A stretch of 64,000 nucleotides of DNA from Novipirellula aureliae (GTDB lineage: Bacteria; Planctomycetota; Planctomycetia; Pirellulales; Pirellulaceae): positions 1,139,132-1,203,131 of the forward strand of contig NZ_SJPY01000001.1 of NCBI RefSeq assembly GCF_007860185.1, written 5' to 3'. The stretch's first letter is position 1, and the number at the start of each line of letters is the position of its first letter. Both the position numbers and the translations under genes were made by a program. Below the pieces are notes generated by a model. The model saw only the letters and a program-made list of their open reading frames with translations. It searched no databases and was not told the DNA's origin. Positions 14,125-22,384 of this stretch are shown piece by piece.

Positions 14125-14553
14125 CGAGAAGGTGGGTGGTTTGTATTTGGTATGAAAGAATGGTTACCCACCTATCAAACCCGCTAGGCACGATTTAGTC
14201 GAGATGAAAAGTTCGCGTTTTAATGTCACGCCCCCTTGCAACCGGCTACGGGGGCGACGATCATCTTTACCCTAATTCAAAAATAGAATTTTTTGAAGCT
14301 CCCTACTTCGCCGTTGCCAGCGTTGCTATGGTATGCCATAGTTTGGCGAAGCAGAAAACGGCCCTATTTGAATCTCCATCTTGTAACCACCCCCGCTTCA
14401 AGTCGTTTTTAGTGGGGTCTTTAGACCATCTCAGTTTGTGAATTTTTTCACAATCTCGAGTGTGCGGTCGGTTGCGGAGGAGCGTTTTTGTTTCCGACGG
14501 ATGATGCTTTCGACAAAGGCATTCGAACTTTTTCAAATCGATCTTCAATACCT
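14125..14553. other. Divergent intergenic region typA / nqrA
   Basis: 429 bases with no gene. It must hold the promoters for typA and for the NQR operon, but no unambiguous -35/-10 pair or operator was identified. It contains short A/T-rich runs around 14276-14297 and an imperfect palindrome CTATGG/CCATAG near 14326-14341. Confidence 0.5.
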
Positions 14554-15900
14554 ATGACAACGATTAAACAAGGGCTGGATCTGCCGATTGCAGGTGCTCC
14601 CGAGCAGCATATTGACGGGGCCAAGCACGTCAGCCGAGTTGCACTTTTGGGCGACGATTACATCGGCATGAAACCCACCATGCTGGTCGCCGAAGGGGAC
14701 ACGGTCCGGCAAGGCCAAGCAGTCTTTGAAGACAAGAAGAACCCTGGTGTTTTGTTCACGGCTCCTGCGTCGGGTAAGGTTGCCGCGGTCAATCGTGGAG
14801 CCAAGCGACGTTTTGAGTCGTTGGTGATCGATGTTGAGGGCGATGAGCGGACCGAATTCAACGATGCGAAGGGTGTCGACCCGCTGAGCCTTGATCGCGA
14901 AGCGGTCGAGAAGCATTTGTTGGCGAGCGGCCTTTGGACTGCGATTCGTACTCGGCCATTTGGCAGGGTTCCAGCCCCCGGTAGTTTGCCCCACTCGATT
15001 TTCGTTCAAGCGATTGACACCTCGCCACTTTCAGCTGACCCTGCCGTTGCGATCGCAAATCGCAAAGACCCGTTCACGCTTGGTTTGGCAGCGTTGACGA
15101 AGCTAACCGAAGGAAAGGTTTTTTTGTGTAAGGCCGAAGGTGCAGAGATTCCTGGTTCGGGCATCGATCGCGTCCAGGTCGAATCCTTTGCTGGCCCGCA
15201 TCCTGCTGGTTTGGTTGGCACACACATTCATTTTCTTGACCCCGTCGGACCGAACAAGACGGTTTGGTATATCAATTACCAGGACGTTTGTGCAATCGGC
15301 AGCCTGTTTCAAACTGGTTTGCTCGACACCAGGCGTGTCATTTCGATCGCGGGACCGATGGTCAAGCAGCCAAGGCTTTTGGAGACTCAGTTGGGCGTCG
15401 AAATTGCCCCGCTAATCGAAGGCGAATTGAGTTCGGACGATCCTTCGCGAGTGATTTCCGGTTCGGTGCTATACGGACGCAAGTGCGAAGGGAACGTTGG
15501 CTTCTTGGGGCGATACCACAATCAAATCTCGGTGATTGCCGAAGGGTATGAGCGAGAGTTTTTAGGTTGGCAAATGCCAGGATTTGACAAGTTTTCGACG
15601 ACTCGCGTCTACGCGTCAGCCGCCACGCCACATAAAAAATTCAAGCTTACGTCATCCACTCACGGCAGCGTGCGTGCGATGGTGCCGCTGGGGACTTACG
15701 AAAAAGTAATGCCCCTCGACATTTTGGCGACTCAATTGTTGCGTTCACTTATCTACCGCGACACCGATGAAGCTCAGCAATTGGGCGTCTTGGAACTAGA
15801 GGAGGAAGATTTATCGCTCTGCACGTTCGTGTGTCCCGGGAAGTACGACTACGGCTCACTCATCCGTGAAAGTTTGGCAACGATTGAGCGAGAAGGATAG
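14554..15900 (+). CDS. nqrA: Na+-translocating NADH:quinone reductase subunit A
   Basis: Subunit A of the Na+-pumping NADH:ubiquinone oxidoreductase, a cytoplasm-facing subunit without flavin. The ATG at 14554 gives [16 protein letters not shown], which matches the canonical NqrA N-terminus ([12 protein letters not shown]); the frame continues 22 codons upstream to a TTG that is unlikely to be used. At 448 residues it is the family length. Features seen include the biotinyl/lipoyl-like segment early in the protein and the C-terminal [21 protein letters not shown], typical of NqrA/RnfC-like ends. First gene of nqrABCDEF-apbE. The gap to nqrB is unusually large (447 bases) and filled by repeats. 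Confidence 0.95.
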
Positions 15901-15905
15901 TATCG

Positions 15906-16257
15906 GCATCTCCTCCAAGACGCTCAGGAAAAAACAGTAGCAGCGTCTCTCCGAGACGCTGAAGACACAGAAACAGTACCAGCATCTCTCCGAGACGCTA
16001 AAGACACAGAAACAGCAGCAGCATCTCACCGAGACGCTAAACACAGAAACGGTAGCAGCATCTCTCCGAGACGCTGGAGGCATAGAAGCAGTAGCAGCGT
16101 CTCTCCGAGACGCTGAAGACATAGAAACAGCAGCAGCATCTCTCCGAGACGCTGAAGACACAGAAACAGTAGCAGCGTCTCTCCGAGACGCTGAAGACAT
16201 AGAAACAGCAGCAGCGTCTCTCCGAGACGCTGGAAACCCCGCGTCTCGGAGAGACGC
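15906..16257. repeat. 39-bp palindromic tandem array in the nqrA-nqrB gap
   Basis: Eight cores of the type GCGTCTCTCCGAGACGCT start at 15943, 15982, 16021, 16058, 16097, 16136, 16175 and 16214. Spacing is 39 bases except one of 37. Each core has 7-base inverted arms around a 3-base loop, and the spacer (GAAGACACAGAAACAG type) is conserved too. A degenerate unit precedes the array at about 15906 and an inverted core GCGTCTCGGAGAGACGC closes it at 16241-16257. The array fills most of the gap inside an operon that is normally compact. Each core could fold in RNA. Confidence 0.92.
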
Positions 16258-16347
16258 GTCTACGAGACACTAAGCAAGACGCGGCTACGATACGCGGTTG
16301 ACTATCACAATGTTTACTACGAACAATCCCATTGGTGGGAAAAACTT

Positions 16348-17625
16348 ATGAAAGCACTTCGCTACGCTCTCGACAAAGTCCATCCTTGGTTCGCCAAAGG
16401 GGCTCCGTTAGAAAAGGCGTATCCTGTCTTTGAAGCACTCGACACGTTCTTGTACACGCCAGGCGACGTTACGACTGGGTCCACACACGTTCGCGACGCG
16501 ATTGACCTGAAGCGAATGATGACGACCGTCGTTGTGGCTCTGATTCCGGTCACGCTCTTTGGTATGTGGAACGTTGGTTATCTGGCCAACAGTGCCTATC
16601 AGGAAATGACAGCGGTCGGGATGGACGCTTCGGGTTCTTGGCAGTACTGGGTACACGAAACTCTCGGTTTTGGGCACGATCCAGGCAACTTTCTCGATAA
16701 TTTCCTACTGGGGGCGATCCATTTTATACCCGTCTATGCCGTTTGCATGTTTGTCGGCGGGCATATCGAAATGGTATTTAGCGTGCTTCGCGGTCACGAG
16801 ATCAACGAAGGGTTTCTCGTGACTGGATTACTGTTTCCGCTGATCCTTCCACCGACGATTCCGCTTTGGCAAGTCGCCTTGGGAATCGCCTTTGGCGTTA
16901 TTGTAGCCAAGGAGGTATTTGGCGGCACGGGCCGAAACTTCTTGAATGTTGCCCTCACTGCTAGAGCGTTTTTGTATTTCGCTTATGCCGCTGAAATCAG
17001 TGGTGAGAAGGTTTGGACCGCCGTCGATGGATTCAGTGGTGCGACAGCTCTGGGGCAAATGGCAAGTGCGGCGCCGAGCGATACAATCGCCAATCCCGCC
17101 GTGGCTTCGCTCGGATCAATCTCCTACGTTTGGGGTGAGACAGGTGCGATCACTTGGATGGATGCATTTTTGGGGACGGTTCAAGGCTGCTTTGGTGAAA
17201 CGAGCACTTTGCTTTGCATCGTCGGTGCCGCCATTTTGATTGCAGCAGGAGTCGGGTCATGGAAGGTGATGTCAGGTGTTGTGCTAGGTGCGATCGGAAC
17301 GTCGCTTTTGTTCAATGCAATCGGTTCGGAAACCAATCCCATGTTAGGCGTCCCATTCTATTGGCACTTGGTTGTCGGTGGCTTGGCGTTCGGTTTGGTC
17401 TTTATGGCAACCGATCCGGTAAGTGCTTCGATGACAGAGAAGGGCAAATGGATCTACGGTGTTTTGATCGGGTTCATGACGATTCTAATTCGAGTCATCA
17501 ATCCAGCGTTCCCCGAAGGGATTATGTTGGCGATCTTGTTTGGTAATGTGTTCGCCCCCTTGATTGATTATTCAGTTGTTTACTTCAACGTTCGTCGGAG
17601 GAACCTACGCTATGCTACAACGTAA
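16348..17625 (+). CDS. nqrB: Na+-translocating NADH:quinone reductase subunit B
   Basis: Polytopic membrane subunit carrying covalently bound FMN and riboflavin, part of the Na+ path. The flavinylation motif SGAT is in [12 protein letters not shown], with the acceptor Thr at residue 233. About ten hydrophobic segments are visible, and [21 protein letters not shown] and [16 protein letters not shown] are family-typical. At 425 residues it is close to the usual 410-415. The ATG at 16348 has GGTGGGA about 10 bases upstream. The last 14 bases overlap nqrC. Confidence 0.95.
17597..17603 (+). promoter_or_regulatory. Ribosome-binding site deciding the nqrC start
   Basis: GGAGGAA lies 8 bases before the ATG at 17612, inside the 3' end of nqrB. 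It supports that start over the in-frame ATG at 17564. Confidence 0.75.
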
Positions 17626-18487
17626 TTCGACTCTTTACACAATTGTCGTTGCCACCATTCTATGCGTGGTTTGTTCGTTCATGGTCAGTGCCGCTGCCGT
17701 TGTGCTGCGACCCTACCAGGAAGCCAACAAGCGGCTCGATCGTCAGCGAAACATTCTCGATGCGGCCGGGTTGGCGATCGGTGAGTTTGGCTTGCCTGCG
17801 AGTGAATTGACCCGAAAGCAAGTTGACGAACTGTATGATCGCGTCAGCGAAAAGCTGGTTGACTTGGAAACGGGTGAATACAACACCGACTTGGATCCGA
17901 AGACCTACGACCCGCGTGAAGCGATCGACAATAAAGATCAAAGCATCGCGATCGAAGACGTCAAATACAACCCTGGCGAGCGACGTCGTGAAAAGGTCGC
18001 TCGCGTTTACTTCGTGAAGAAACCTGGCAGTGAAAAGATCGATCAGGTTGTTTTGCCAATCTATGGCAAAGGTTTGTGGTCGACCCTTTATGGATTCATG
18101 GCACTCAAGAGCGACCTAACAACGATTAGTGGATTGACATTCTACGAGCATGGTGAAACGCCTGGTCTTGGTGGCGAGGTGGATAACCAAAACTGGAAAC
18201 AGCAATGGAATGGTCAAAAGTTGTACAACGAAAAAGGGGAGCCTGCGGCATTTGTCTACAAGGGTGCGGCTCCTCCCGACAACCCCTACGCCGTCGATGG
18301 GCTTTCGGGGGCAACGATTACATCTAACGGCGTCACGAATTTGATGCGTTATTGGGCGAGTGACGATGGGTATGGTCATTTCCTTGACAAGTTGGCTGGT
18401 GAACTTTCGAGTGAGTCCGATTCGGATCAAGTGGATTCCTCGACTTCCGCTCAAGTGGACAACGACATTCCAAACGGAGACGCATAA
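17612..18487 (+). CDS. nqrC: Na+-translocating NADH:quinone reductase subunit C
   Basis: Membrane-anchored subunit with covalent FMN on the outer side. One N-terminal transmembrane helix ([22 protein letters not shown]) is followed by a periplasmic domain. The ApbE-target motif SGAT is in [13 protein letters not shown], with the acceptor Thr at residue 235. At 291 residues it is longer than typical NqrC (about 257), mainly through an acidic Ser/Asp-rich C-terminal tail. It overlaps nqrB by 14 bases and ends 2 bases before nqrD, indicating tight coupling. Confidence 0.94.
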
Positions 18488-18489
18488 CG

Positions 18490-19101
18490 ATGGCAACAAT
18501 CAAAGCGAAAGAGGCCCTGTTTGGGCCGGTGATCGACAACAATCCGATCGCTCTTCAAATTCTGGGAATCTGTAGTGCACTTGCGGTCACGACGAAGATG
18601 GAAACATCGGTCGTCATGGCGATTGCCGTGATTGCGGTAACCGCGTTTAGCAATTTAGCTGTCAGCGCGATTCGGCATTACATTCCCAGCAGCATCCGAA
18701 TCATCGTCCAAATGACCGTGATTGCATCGTTGGTGATCGTCGTTGATCAAATACTCAAAGCATTCTTGTTTGACATTAGCAAACAGCTTTCCGTTTTTGT
18801 CGGGTTGATCATTACGAACTGCATCGTGATGGGACGAGCCGAAGGGTTTGCGATGAAGAACGGCCCCGGGATCAGTTTCCTCGATGGGATTGGCAATGGT
18901 TTGGGGTATGGTTTTGTTCTTTTGTTCGTCGCTTTCTTTCGAGAACTCTTCGGTGCCGGATCGCTATTTGGTGTTCGGATCATGCCCGAGTTTTACGAAC
19001 CCAACAATTTGATGTTACTGCCGCCTAGCGCGTTTTTCTTGATCGGCTTTTTGATTTGGGCGATTCGCACCATCAAGCCAGAACAAATTGAAGAGGCTTA
19101 A
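18490..19101 (+). CDS. nqrD: Na+-translocating NADH:quinone reductase subunit D
   Basis: Six-helix membrane subunit, homologous to NqrE, RnfA and RnfE. Together with NqrE it holds an iron centre ligated by four Cys at the middle of the membrane. The two expected Cys are present: Cys28 in LGICSALAV and Cys111 in [15 protein letters not shown]. Its 203 residues agree with the family. The start ATG at 18490 lies 2 bases after the nqrC stop. Confidence 0.95.
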
Positions 19102-19105
19102 TTCG

Positions 19106-19747
19106 ATGGAACATTACTTTAGCATTTTGATGAAGGCGATCTTTGTCGAGAATCTTGCGTTGGCCTTCTTTCTCGGCATGTGTACCTTCTTGGCGGTAAG
19201 CAAGAATGTTAAAACCGCGCTTGGACTTGGAGTCGCGGTCGTTGCGATCTTAACGATTACGGTTCCGGCAAACCAATTGATCTACTCGCTACTGCTCAAA
19301 AAGGGAGCGCTCGGCTGGGTCAATGAAACGTTTGGCGTTGCCACTGCGACCATGGACTTTTCCACCGTCGACTTGACGTTTTTAGGGTTTATTAGCTACA
19401 TCGGCGTGATCGCGGCAATGGTTCAAATCCTAGAAATGACGCTCGATAAATTTTTTCCACCACTCTACAACGCACTCGGGATCTTCCTGCCATTGATCAC
19501 CGTCAATTGTGCAATCCTCGGTGCTTCGTTGTTCATGGAACAGCGAAAGTACGACTTTGTTGATAGTTGTGTCTATGGATTCGGTTGTGGAATCGGTTGG
19601 GCGATCGCGATCGCCGCATTGGCAGGGATTCGCGAGAAGATGAAGTACAGTGATGTGCCACCACCCCTGCGTGGACTAGGGATCACGTTTATTACCGTCG
19701 GCTTGATGGCGTTGGCCTTCATGTCGTTTGGCGGGATTCAATTGTAG
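19106..19747 (+). CDS. nqrE: Na+-translocating NADH:quinone reductase subunit E
   Basis: Partner of NqrD in the membrane iron site. It contributes Cys26 ([12 protein letters not shown]) and Cys135 ([13 protein letters not shown]). Its 213 residues slightly exceed the usual 198. The ATG at 19106 gives [22 protein letters not shown], the canonical NqrE start, and AAGAGG at 19091-19096 in the nqrD 3' end is well placed; the in-frame TTG at 19088 is rejected. It lies 4 bases after nqrD. Confidence 0.95.
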
Positions 19748-19826
19748 AGAAGCGATGCAGCGATGTGGTGCAAACCCTGCTGAGAATTAACCATTACCTT
19801 TTTGTTTTCGGACGAATTTAACAAAG

Positions 19827-21050
19827 ATGAATACCATCTTACTTGGCGTCGCGATGTTCACAGTCGTCGTGCTCGCGTTAGTTTTGATTATCCTTGCGGC
19901 GAAGAGCCAATTAGTCGCTTCGGGACCCGTCAAGATCTTGATCAATCATGAGAAAGAGATAGAAGTGCCGGCGGGTGGGAAATTGCTCGGAGCGCTTGCA
20001 GATGCAGGCGTCTTCGTCTCGAGCGCTTGCGGCGGCGGCGGTACTTGCGCCCAATGTAAAGTAAAGGTCGAATCGGGCGGCGGCGATATCCTGGCCACCG
20101 AAAAAGGTCATATCAACAAGAAGGAAGCCGCCGAAGGCGAACGACTCAGTTGCCAAGTGGCGGTCAAACAAGACATGGTCGTCGAGGTGCCTGCCGAAGC
20201 GTTTGATACCAAAAAATGGGAATGCACCGTCCGTAGCAACAATAACGTTGCAACGTTCATCAAGGAGTTCGTGCTAGAACTTCCCGAAGGTGAAGAGGTT
20301 GATTTCCGAGCGGGCGGTTATATTCAAATCGAGTGCCCACCACACGAAGTCCACTATAAAGATTTTGTCATCGAAGATCGCTTTCGCGAAGATTGGGACA
20401 AATTCGATGTCTGGCGTTACGTGTCGAAGGTCGATGAACCCGTCGTACGTGCGTACTCGATGGCCAACTACCCCGGCGAAAAAGGCATCATTATGCTCAA
20501 TGTGCGTGTGGCATCACCACCGCCTCGAGCACCCGAAGGTACTCCACCTGGAAAAATGAGTAGTTGGATCTTTAGTTTGAAGCCTGGCGACAAGGCTACC
20601 ATTAGCGGGCCCTACGGAGAGTTCTTTATCAAGGATACCGACGCCGAAATGGTTTACATCGGTGGGGGTGCCGGAATGGCTCCGCTGCGAAGTCACATCT
20701 TTGAACTGTTCAAGCGAAAGAAGACCAACCGAAAGGTCTCGTATTGGTACGGTGGTCGATCTAGCCGCGAACTGTTTTATGTCGATCATTTCCGTGAAAT
20801 TGAGAAAGAGTTCCCGAACTTCCAATTCAATATCGCCCTTTCCGAACCCCTTCCGGAAGACAATTGGTCGGGGTATCAAGGCTTCATTCACCAAGTCTTG
20901 CTTGAAAACTACTTGTCCAAACATCCGGCTCCCGAAGACATCGAGTACTACATTTGTGGACCGCCGATGATGAACCAAGCGGTCTTCAAAATGCTTGATG
21001 ACCTTGGTGTGGAACCTGAAAACATCGCCTATGACGATTTCGGCGGCTAA
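19827..21050 (+). CDS. nqrF: Na+-translocating NADH:quinone reductase subunit F
   Basis: NADH-oxidising subunit. An N-terminal membrane helix (residues about 5-25) is followed by a 2Fe-2S ferredoxin domain with Cys68, Cys74, Cys77 and Cys109. Next come a ferredoxin-reductase-type FAD domain (RAYSMANYP) and an NADH domain ([22 protein letters not shown]). The length of 407 is identical to well-known NqrF proteins. The gap to nqrE is 79 bases; the apbE-like gene begins 2 bases after its stop. Confidence 0.96.
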
Positions 21051-21052
21051 AC

Positions 21053-22384
21053 ATGTTATGCAAAACCATTCGCCAAACGGTCCTGGTAACGCTTTGTCTT
21101 TGTAGCGTCGCGGTCCCGATTGGCGAATTGCATGCCGGTGATGCGGAGATACTTGAACTTCGCGGACCGACGATGGGGACGACCTACATGGTCAAAATCT
21201 ACGATCCCCCGGCGTTCAAAGAACCGATCGCTGAAGAAATCGATGCGGAACTCCGTCTGGTCAATGACCAGATGTCGACCTACTTGAAGTCGTCCGAGCT
21301 GAGTCGTTTTAACGACTCCGATTCAACGGATTGGTTTGAGGTCAGCCGCGACACGGCGCTCGTGGTGCAGATGGCTTTGGAAGTTGCCGAAGCGACTGGC
21401 GGAGCGTTCGATCCGACGGTCGGACCACTTGTCAATGCGTGGAGTTTTGGGCCAGACCCCAAGACACAGGAGGTTCCATCGGAACAAAAGCTTGCCGAGC
21501 TGCGCAAATTGGTCGGTTACAAGAACCTCTCCGTGCGAACCGATCCGCCCGCTCTAAAGAAGTTGATCCCGAGTTTGCGAGTCGATTTGTCAGCAATCGC
21601 CAAGGGGCATGGCGTCGACCGTGTTGTCGAACTGCTCGCACAAGCGGACGCGAAAAATGTCTTTGTCGAAATCGGGGGAGAAGTCCGCACGGTCGGCAGG
21701 AAGGGGGATGATCGATGGAAAGTTGGTATCCAGAATCCTGAAACCCGCTTTGTAACGACTGGACAAACATCTGCGATGCCTCCATCGATCGCTGCAGCTC
21801 ATCCGCTAACCAATCAAGCGATGGCGACCTCGGGCGATTACCAGAACTACTTTGAAGTGGATGGAAAACGTTATTCTCATACAATCGACCCCAGAACGGG
21901 TCGACCTGTCGAACATGGTCTAGCGTCCGTCTCCGTCATCTCGGATACTTGTATGAAAGCGGATGCTTGGGCAACCGCGATCGATGTCCTCGGCATGAAG
22001 GACGGACTTCGCGCAGCCCAAGAACAATCACTCGACGTTTTTTTGATTTCACGAAACGAATCGGGAATTGTGAAAGTTGGTACGGGGGCGCTCAAGCAGT
22101 ATGCGGAAGGAAAATCGCTAGATGAAGTGACTGTCACGCAGCAAGACATTCCTTGGCTGACCCGGTTCATGCCAACCTTGGTGGTTACGATAATAGGCTT
22201 CACGGTCTTCTTGATCGCCATGGCGATCGGCGTGCTGCTCGGCGGAAAGCGAATCAGCGGATCGTGTGGCGGTTTGGCGGGGAAAGAGAATCCGGACGGC
22301 AGTATCCGTTGCTCGATGTGCGGAACTCCATCCGAGGGCTGCAAAGAATTACGCGAAAAAATGCAGAACAGTACATCCAAATAA
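21053..22384 (+). CDS. ApbE-type FAD:protein FMN transferase fused to an NqrM-like module
   Basis: Residues about 1-28 are a signal peptide. Residues 30-355 form an ApbE domain (ELRGPTMGTTYMVK, VDLSAIAKGHGVD, MATSGDYQNYFEVDGKRYSHTIDPRTG, MKADAWATAIDVLG), the enzyme that attaches FMN to Thr of SGAT sites in NqrB and NqrC outside the membrane. Residues 371-443 are different: one transmembrane helix (about 373-395), a basic GGKR, then ISGSCGGLAG and Cys405, Cys420, Cys423 and Cys430. This matches the layout of NqrM (DUF539), the membrane protein needed to build the NqrD/E iron centre. The topology (ApbE outside, Cys tail inside) follows from signal peptide and positive-inside rule. Its position directly behind nqrF supports a combined maturation protein; the fusion assignment is inference. 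Confidence 0.88.
   Translation: MLCKTIRQTVLVTLCLCSVAVPIGELHAGDAEILELRGPTMGTTYMVKIYDPPAFKEPIAEEIDAELRLVNDQMSTYLKSSELSRFNDSDSTDWFEVSRDTALVVQMALEVAEATGGAFDPTVGPLVNAWSFGPDPKTQEVPSEQKLAELRKLVGYKNLSVRTDPPALKKLIPSLRVDLSAIAKGHGVDRVVELLAQADAKNVFVEIGGEVRTVGRKGDDRWKVGIQNPETRFVTTGQTSAMPPSIAAAHPLTNQAMATSGDYQNYFEVDGKRYSHTIDPRTGRPVEHGLASVSVISDTCMKADAWATAIDVLGMKDGLRAAQEQSLDVFLISRNESGIVKVGTGALKQYAEGKSLDEVTVTQQDIPWLTRFMPTLVVTIIGFTVFLIAMAIGVLLGGKRISGSCGGLAGKENPDGSIRCSMCGTPSEGCKELREKMQNSTSK

Follow-up and report, generated by a model that had tools for sequence, protein, structure and literature searches.

The window, the whole 64,000-nucleotide stretch of Novipirellula aureliae DNA that was analysed, carries an nqr operon on the forward strand, followed by an apbE-nqrM fusion gene encoding 443 aa. 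The nqrF stop codon ends at 21050 and the fusion ATG lies at 21053, leaving a gap of 2 bp, just as the initial annotation had it when it placed this gene directly after nqrF. The span it singled out, 22161-22384, runs from about residue 370 to the stop of the fusion gene. Pfam, hydropathy and AlphaFold bear out its description of a signal peptide, an ApbE domain, one helix and a Cys-rich tail within a single gene, and the four tail cysteines are exactly those it named (405, 420, 423 and 430), with GSCGG surrounding Cys405. The features of the operon and of the fusion gene are as follows.

14488-21050, + strand: nqrA, nqrB, nqrC, nqrD, nqrE and nqrF, upstream of the fusion (NCBIfam, all six over the curated cut-off)
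17026-17046, + strand: NqrB flavinylation motif DGFSGAT, expected ApbE target (pattern match)
18296-18316, + strand: NqrC flavinylation motif DGLSGAT, expected ApbE target (pattern match)
18571-18573, + strand: NqrD Cys28, expected iron-site ligand (Cys position)
18820-18822, + strand: NqrD Cys111, expected iron-site ligand (Cys position)
19181-19183, + strand: NqrE Cys26, expected iron-site ligand (Cys position)
19508-19510, + strand: NqrE Cys135, expected iron-site ligand (Cys position)
21053-22384, + strand: apbE-nqrM fusion gene, 443 aa (ORF list, Pfam, AlphaFold)
21053-21136, + strand: putative Sec-type signal peptide spanning roughly residues 1-28, probably cleaved behind LHA, limits set by eye (hydrophobic windows starting at residues 5-10)
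21173-22039, + strand: ApbE flavin transferase domain, residues 41-329 (PF02424 E 3.6e-91; Foldseek 6nxi; His276)
22151-22243, + strand: predicted single membrane helix (the NqrM helix), residues 367-397 (AlphaFold helix and hydropathy)
22244-22384, + strand: NqrM-type Cys tail, residues 398-443 plus the stop codon, expected to be cytoplasmic (PF04400 in relatives, hhalign, charge pattern)
22265-22267, + strand: TGT codon of Cys405, which aligns with Vibrio NqrM Cys33 (alignment)
22310-22321, + strand: Cys420 and Cys423, CSMC (alignment)
22340-22342, + strand: Cys430 (alignment)

The second hydrophobic stretch of the fusion protein is marked by 19-residue windows starting at residues 369-385. 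NqrD and NqrE have two cysteines each at matching places; we take these four (NqrD Cys28 and Cys111, NqrE Cys26 and Cys135) to be the iron-site ligands of the NQR literature. Separately, in the gap between nqrA and nqrB (window 15856-16200), a minus-strand ORF encodes SSASRRDAA units over and over, which amounts to a tandem DNA repeat inside the operon.

A complete ApbE domain joined to an NqrM-type tail

Judged by its sequence and its predicted fold, the ApbE domain of the fusion protein is complete. The PF02424 match is full-length (profile positions 1-264 of 266, 305.8 bits against a cut-off of 25.6), and His276 of SHTIDPRTG is invariant in all 36 alignment rows. The AlphaFold model, built from 36 rows (mean pLDDT 87.1, pTM 0.77), reproduces the ApbE fold, and a Foldseek comparison with solved structures returned ApbE chains as the best matches, Vibrio cholerae ApbE (6nxi) first with a TM of 0.92 on target. 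Three ApbE genes are present in this genome. For the tail, whose structure prediction had been proposed as a check, the model gives a helix at residues 367-397 (pLDDT about 74-91 in blocks of ten residues), followed by a loop and, at 428-440, by a short helix, and pLDDT falls below 50 at residues 405-409 and 419-424.

NqrM (DUF539, PF04400) is a maturation factor of the Na+-NQR of Vibrio, and its layout, one helix followed by GSCGG and further cysteines, is present in the window protein. The earlier comparison of the tail with NqrM stands through the fused relatives and through profile alignment, and falls short for the window's own tail in the HMM search: alone it scores 16.1 bits against PF04400 (E 0.01) and as part of the whole protein 11.7, below the cut-off of 22. 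All seven fused relatives scanned pass that cut-off at 23.5-28.4 bits (L036, 23.7; L037, 26.9; L041, 26.6; L045, 28.2; L078, 23.5; L079, 25.5; L080, 28.4), as does a separate-gene relative (L083). Across the tail family, fused and separate, 21 of 23 members match NqrM at E<=1 (best 6.4e-9), and hhalign aligned the 14-row planctomycete tail set with 16 proteobacterial NqrM sequences over 70 columns (E 1e-23, probability 99.6). All rows of the 14-row tail alignment (13 fused, one separate) share the GSCGG Cys and the two Cys that follow it, and at least 90% of them also have the fourth. The GSCGG Cys aligns with residue 33 of Vibrio NqrM. A 2016 NqrM paper reportedly found Cys33 to be the one essential Cys of the Vibrio harveyi protein. 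By homology, then, the tail is NqrM.

Within the N. aureliae genome, the tail query and two tail-family profiles each match one place, the window itself, and none of the three finds a second tail homologue; the proposed check for a separate nqrM thus yielded none of the nqr type. The initial annotation had set a separate complete nqrM, together with a tail lacking any DUF539 match, against its own reading, and the outcome of these searches favours NqrM. PF04400 itself gives five sub-cut-off matches in the genome, of which the window tail ranks third.

The first of these five is a 62-aa ORF beside the rnf operon (G000:C3, L001:1363-1551, + strand). It lies right after rnfA, is single-helix and Cys-rich, and bears a weak likeness to NqrM (E 0.026, below the PF04400 cut-off). 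An ORF in the same place occurs in a second genome (G121, L263:1500-1676), so that the pair, 58-62 aa in size, represents 2 of the 117 genomes of the order searched. Possibly it is an NqrM counterpart for Rnf. Between rnfA and this ORF, at about 1110-1330 of L001, lie repeated short inverted units of the AGGCTAGAAGCCTGGG type.

The tail family accompanies nqrF and is recurrently fused to ApbE

Among 294 Planctomycetota genomes, the tail was matched (E<=0.01) in 41 and nqrF in 43. Both occur in 36 genomes, the tail only in five, nqrF only in seven and neither in 246 (Fisher p 1e-33, uncorrected for kinship). At E<=0.1, the tail-family profile picks up only G017 among the seven nqrF-only genomes and nothing in the five that have the tail only. 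Six of the 43 nqrF genomes are left in which NqrM is not found even by the profile (G024, G026, G028, G035, G051 and G089). One of them, G024, is a near-complete single-contig genome with nqr, in which neither the tail query nor the profile finds NqrM, and its genus group also includes two fused genomes. Because this genome is near complete and in one contig, its NqrM is either truly absent or very different.

The fusion recurs in planctomycetes, where a survey had been suggested. Six of the 41 tail-bearing genomes are fused, the window's included, a count in which ten of the matches came without a fetched locus (frames of 49-267 aa). The window's order gave 73 tail matches better than 1e-10 among 246 genomes, and 21 of the 72 loci examined (all but that of G392) are fused. 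Each of these 21 genomes has exactly one tail match, and 19 of them carry nqrF or a piece of it immediately upstream of the fusion, in the same orientation. Many relatives carry this module as a small gene of its own, immediately behind apbE in the nqr operon. Among the best 80 loci of a named collection, eight are fused, all from Planctomycetota (Rubripirellula, Rhodopirellula sp. JC639, Stieleria tagensis and five planctomycete MAGs); the other loci either have nqrM as a gene of its own behind apbE, as Vibrio does, or yielded no nqrM. NqrM was found in 49 of 299 Pseudomonadota genomes, and none of the 52 matches lies in a frame long enough for an ApbE fusion (65-172 aa). In these samples, which cover other phyla unevenly, the fusion is confined to Planctomycetota.

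Besides the window's, 29 non-identical fused sequences entered a tree of 97 ApbE domains (30 fused), among them those of two named isolates, Rhodopirellula sp. JC639 and Stieleria tagensis. With 29 other such sequences at hand, the in-frame join is neither chance nor an assembly error. This tree was built quickly, with SH-aLRT support only, and no single branch sets its outgroup apart from the rest. It requires 11 changes of the fused state, with at least five fused/separate changes forced by well-supported branches, and it does not distinguish fusion from fission. The window protein falls within a fused clade with Pirellulaceae.

Four fused genomes (G274, G137, G194 and G291) carry the fusion at a distance from nqr, and the sequence retrieved around their nqr operons shows no apbE. 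In a fifth fused genome (G266) the contig ends in nqrF. Two loci (L081 and L082) are cut off by contig edges, and either may conceal a fusion. A candidate second nqrM beside nqr in G274 (L068, tail match E 0.006) was rejected, its frame being only 21 aa. Also rejected as fused was the 456-aa frame of G025 (L044), where a separate nqrM is out of frame with ApbE, and L053 and L055 were not counted for the same reason.

Searches of the open-licence literature, as far as its text was accessible, returned no description of an ApbE–NqrM fusion. The accessible text of a 2025 NQR review (PMC12174285) contains neither "fused" nor "fusion", and that of an ApbE review (PMC12052999) names fumarate reductase as the sole ApbE fusion partner and lacks the term NqrM. 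The accessible text of an NQR evolution study (PMC4014512) mentions neither ApbE nor DUF539.

Membrane anchoring and alternative readings of the tail

The orientation first proposed, with ApbE outside and the Cys tail inside, is supported by the signal peptide and by the charge pattern around the helix. Residues 355-369, before the helix, contain no K/R and three D/E, and residues 394-408, after it, contain two K/R and no D/E. From these two features we infer that the ApbE domain is exported and that the tail faces the cytoplasm.

A strict lipobox pattern matches 3 of 26 fused and 37 of 61 separate planctomycete ApbEs, and a broad pattern 5 of 26 and 49 of 61, with start codons chosen by rule and after removal of five rows, four fused and one separate, whose N-terminus was unusable. 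Neither pattern matches the window protein (L166). On independent pairs the same trend appears, with only five pairs and a median p of 0.5, a number at which significance is out of reach. Because most fused ApbEs are without a lipobox, the helix probably anchors them.

That role for the helix, and the position of the window tail below the Pfam NqrM cut-off, would also fit a tail that serves only as a membrane anchor for ApbE, its Cys motif being a functionless relic. We consider this improbable: the GSCGG Cys and the two that follow are invariant across the 14 rows, no second tail homologue was found in the N. aureliae genome, and the tail family co-occurs with nqrF. There is also an outside chance that an internal start yields free NqrM as well, which would make this a partly coupled two-product gene. 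In 9 of 30 fused genes, the window's included, an ATG survives no more than two codons from the former NqrM start, but a strong Shine-Dalgarno-like match stands upstream of only one of those nine (L041), and the window's ATG has none. A zinc-ribbon identity for the tail, with no kinship to NqrM, is scarcely credible and was rejected, for although the tail alone matches PF13240 (Zn_Ribbon_1) with a better E-value than NqrM (0.0012 against 0.01), this match is below its cut-off (19 bits against 25), spans one CxxC of the ribbon and recurs in only 1 of 23 tail-family members against 21 for NqrM, with which the helix and [KRS]GSCGG align over the entire length. Solved structures searched by NqrM sequence gave zinc-finger chains only, at E>0.07.

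A UGA codon at the Cys405-equivalent position in Desulfuromonadales

An in-frame TGA was first seen in two NqrM-like loci (L136 near 4990 and L137 near 10095). In the class of G535, whose record is titled Desulfuromonadales, 55 of 194 genomes match an NqrM-like query and six of them have an in-frame TGA; G536 is a seventh such genome. In all seven (L228, L229, L236, L238, L239, L241 and L244) the TGA falls exactly at the equivalent of Cys33 and Cys405 (LRGG-TGA-..DCRC). The frame continues beyond it into the next conserved Cys pair, and close relatives have TGT or TGC there. The Cys forms of this protein match proteobacterial NqrM (E 2.5e-14), and the TGA-read-through protein gave no PF04400 match. 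selB is above cut-off in 12 of 13 TGA and control genomes; in the thirteenth, G637, which is one of the seven TGA genomes, selB was seen just in part, where a contig ends.

From these sequence patterns, the UGA is likely to encode selenocysteine, in a new selenoprotein form of NqrM. A SECIS-like hairpin after the TGA is weak support: 95.9% of its cells are paired, its covariation is no better than that of shuffles (146/500), and almost the same bases occur in a relative that carries Cys. If real, selenocysteine here points to a reactive residue at Cys405. NqrM is not named in the accessible text of three selenoprotein papers, and NqrE, not NqrM, has been listed as a selenoprotein (PMC9312934).

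Proposed function and comparison with known systems

For Na+-NQR, a sodium-pumping respiratory enzyme, two specific maturation factors are known, ApbE and NqrM. The anatomy of the gene, the homology of both halves, the nqr link and the recurrence of the fusion are observations, upon which the reading that we favour (probability about 0.82) assigns both activities by homology: one helix-anchored protein would flavinylate NqrB and NqrC outside and mature the iron site of NqrD and NqrE inside. The exported ApbE domain would move FMN from FAD to the NqrB and NqrC threonines at the outer membrane face. The NqrM helix would span the membrane once and tether the protein to it, a task usually done by a lipid anchor. 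The cytoplasmic Cys tail, above all through Cys405, would help to build the NqrD/NqrE iron site. The accessible text of the 2025 review describes NqrM as needed for the intramembrane [2Fe-2S] of NQR (PMC12174285).

Because its halves are fused, both maturation steps may take place at the same complex, and the flavin and iron steps may be coupled in place or time. The arrangement suggests that both loading steps happen together on a half-built enzyme. More tentatively, and short of even odds, a single membrane-spanning factor would dock once on the immature NqrB-E core, flavinylating outside and building the iron site inside. Cys405 would act as a reactive thiol, not merely as a structural ligand, a role hinted at by the selenocysteine-type UGA codons at this NqrM position in the Desulfuromonadales group. 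The natural fusion to an exported domain would also set the orientation of NqrM generally, with its N-terminus out and its Cys domain in.

As a recurrent natural fusion, this protein indicates that ApbE and NqrM can act as one unit. It would also fix a testable NqrM topology, with the Cys tail inside, and in a single fusion gene, flavin and iron maturation should be separable by point mutations.

With Vibrio NqrM, the tail has in common one helix, basic residues, GSCGG and two to three further Cys. The gene neighbourhood is likewise similar, the planctomycete module and Vibrio nqrM both lying beside apbE and nqr; in Vibrio cholerae, apbE and nqrM follow nqr (accessible text of PMC12174285). 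Vibrio NqrM is a free small protein, whereas here it forms the C-terminal part of an exported ApbE, and 13 residues separate GSCGG from a CxxC where Vibrio NqrM has 11 before a CxC. The ApbE half shares with nqr-linked ApbE (PF02424, PDB 6nxi) its fold, the HTIDPRTG segment and the gene position after nqrF. According to the accessible text of the ApbE review (PMC12052999), characterised ApbEs are mostly N-terminally lipidated lipoproteins; the fusion protein instead has a plain signal peptide and a C-terminal helix. The same text describes the ApbE–fumarate reductase of trypanosomatids, likewise a natural ApbE fusion. In trypanosomatids ApbE is joined to its own target, whereas in Novipirellula aureliae it is joined to a second maturation factor.
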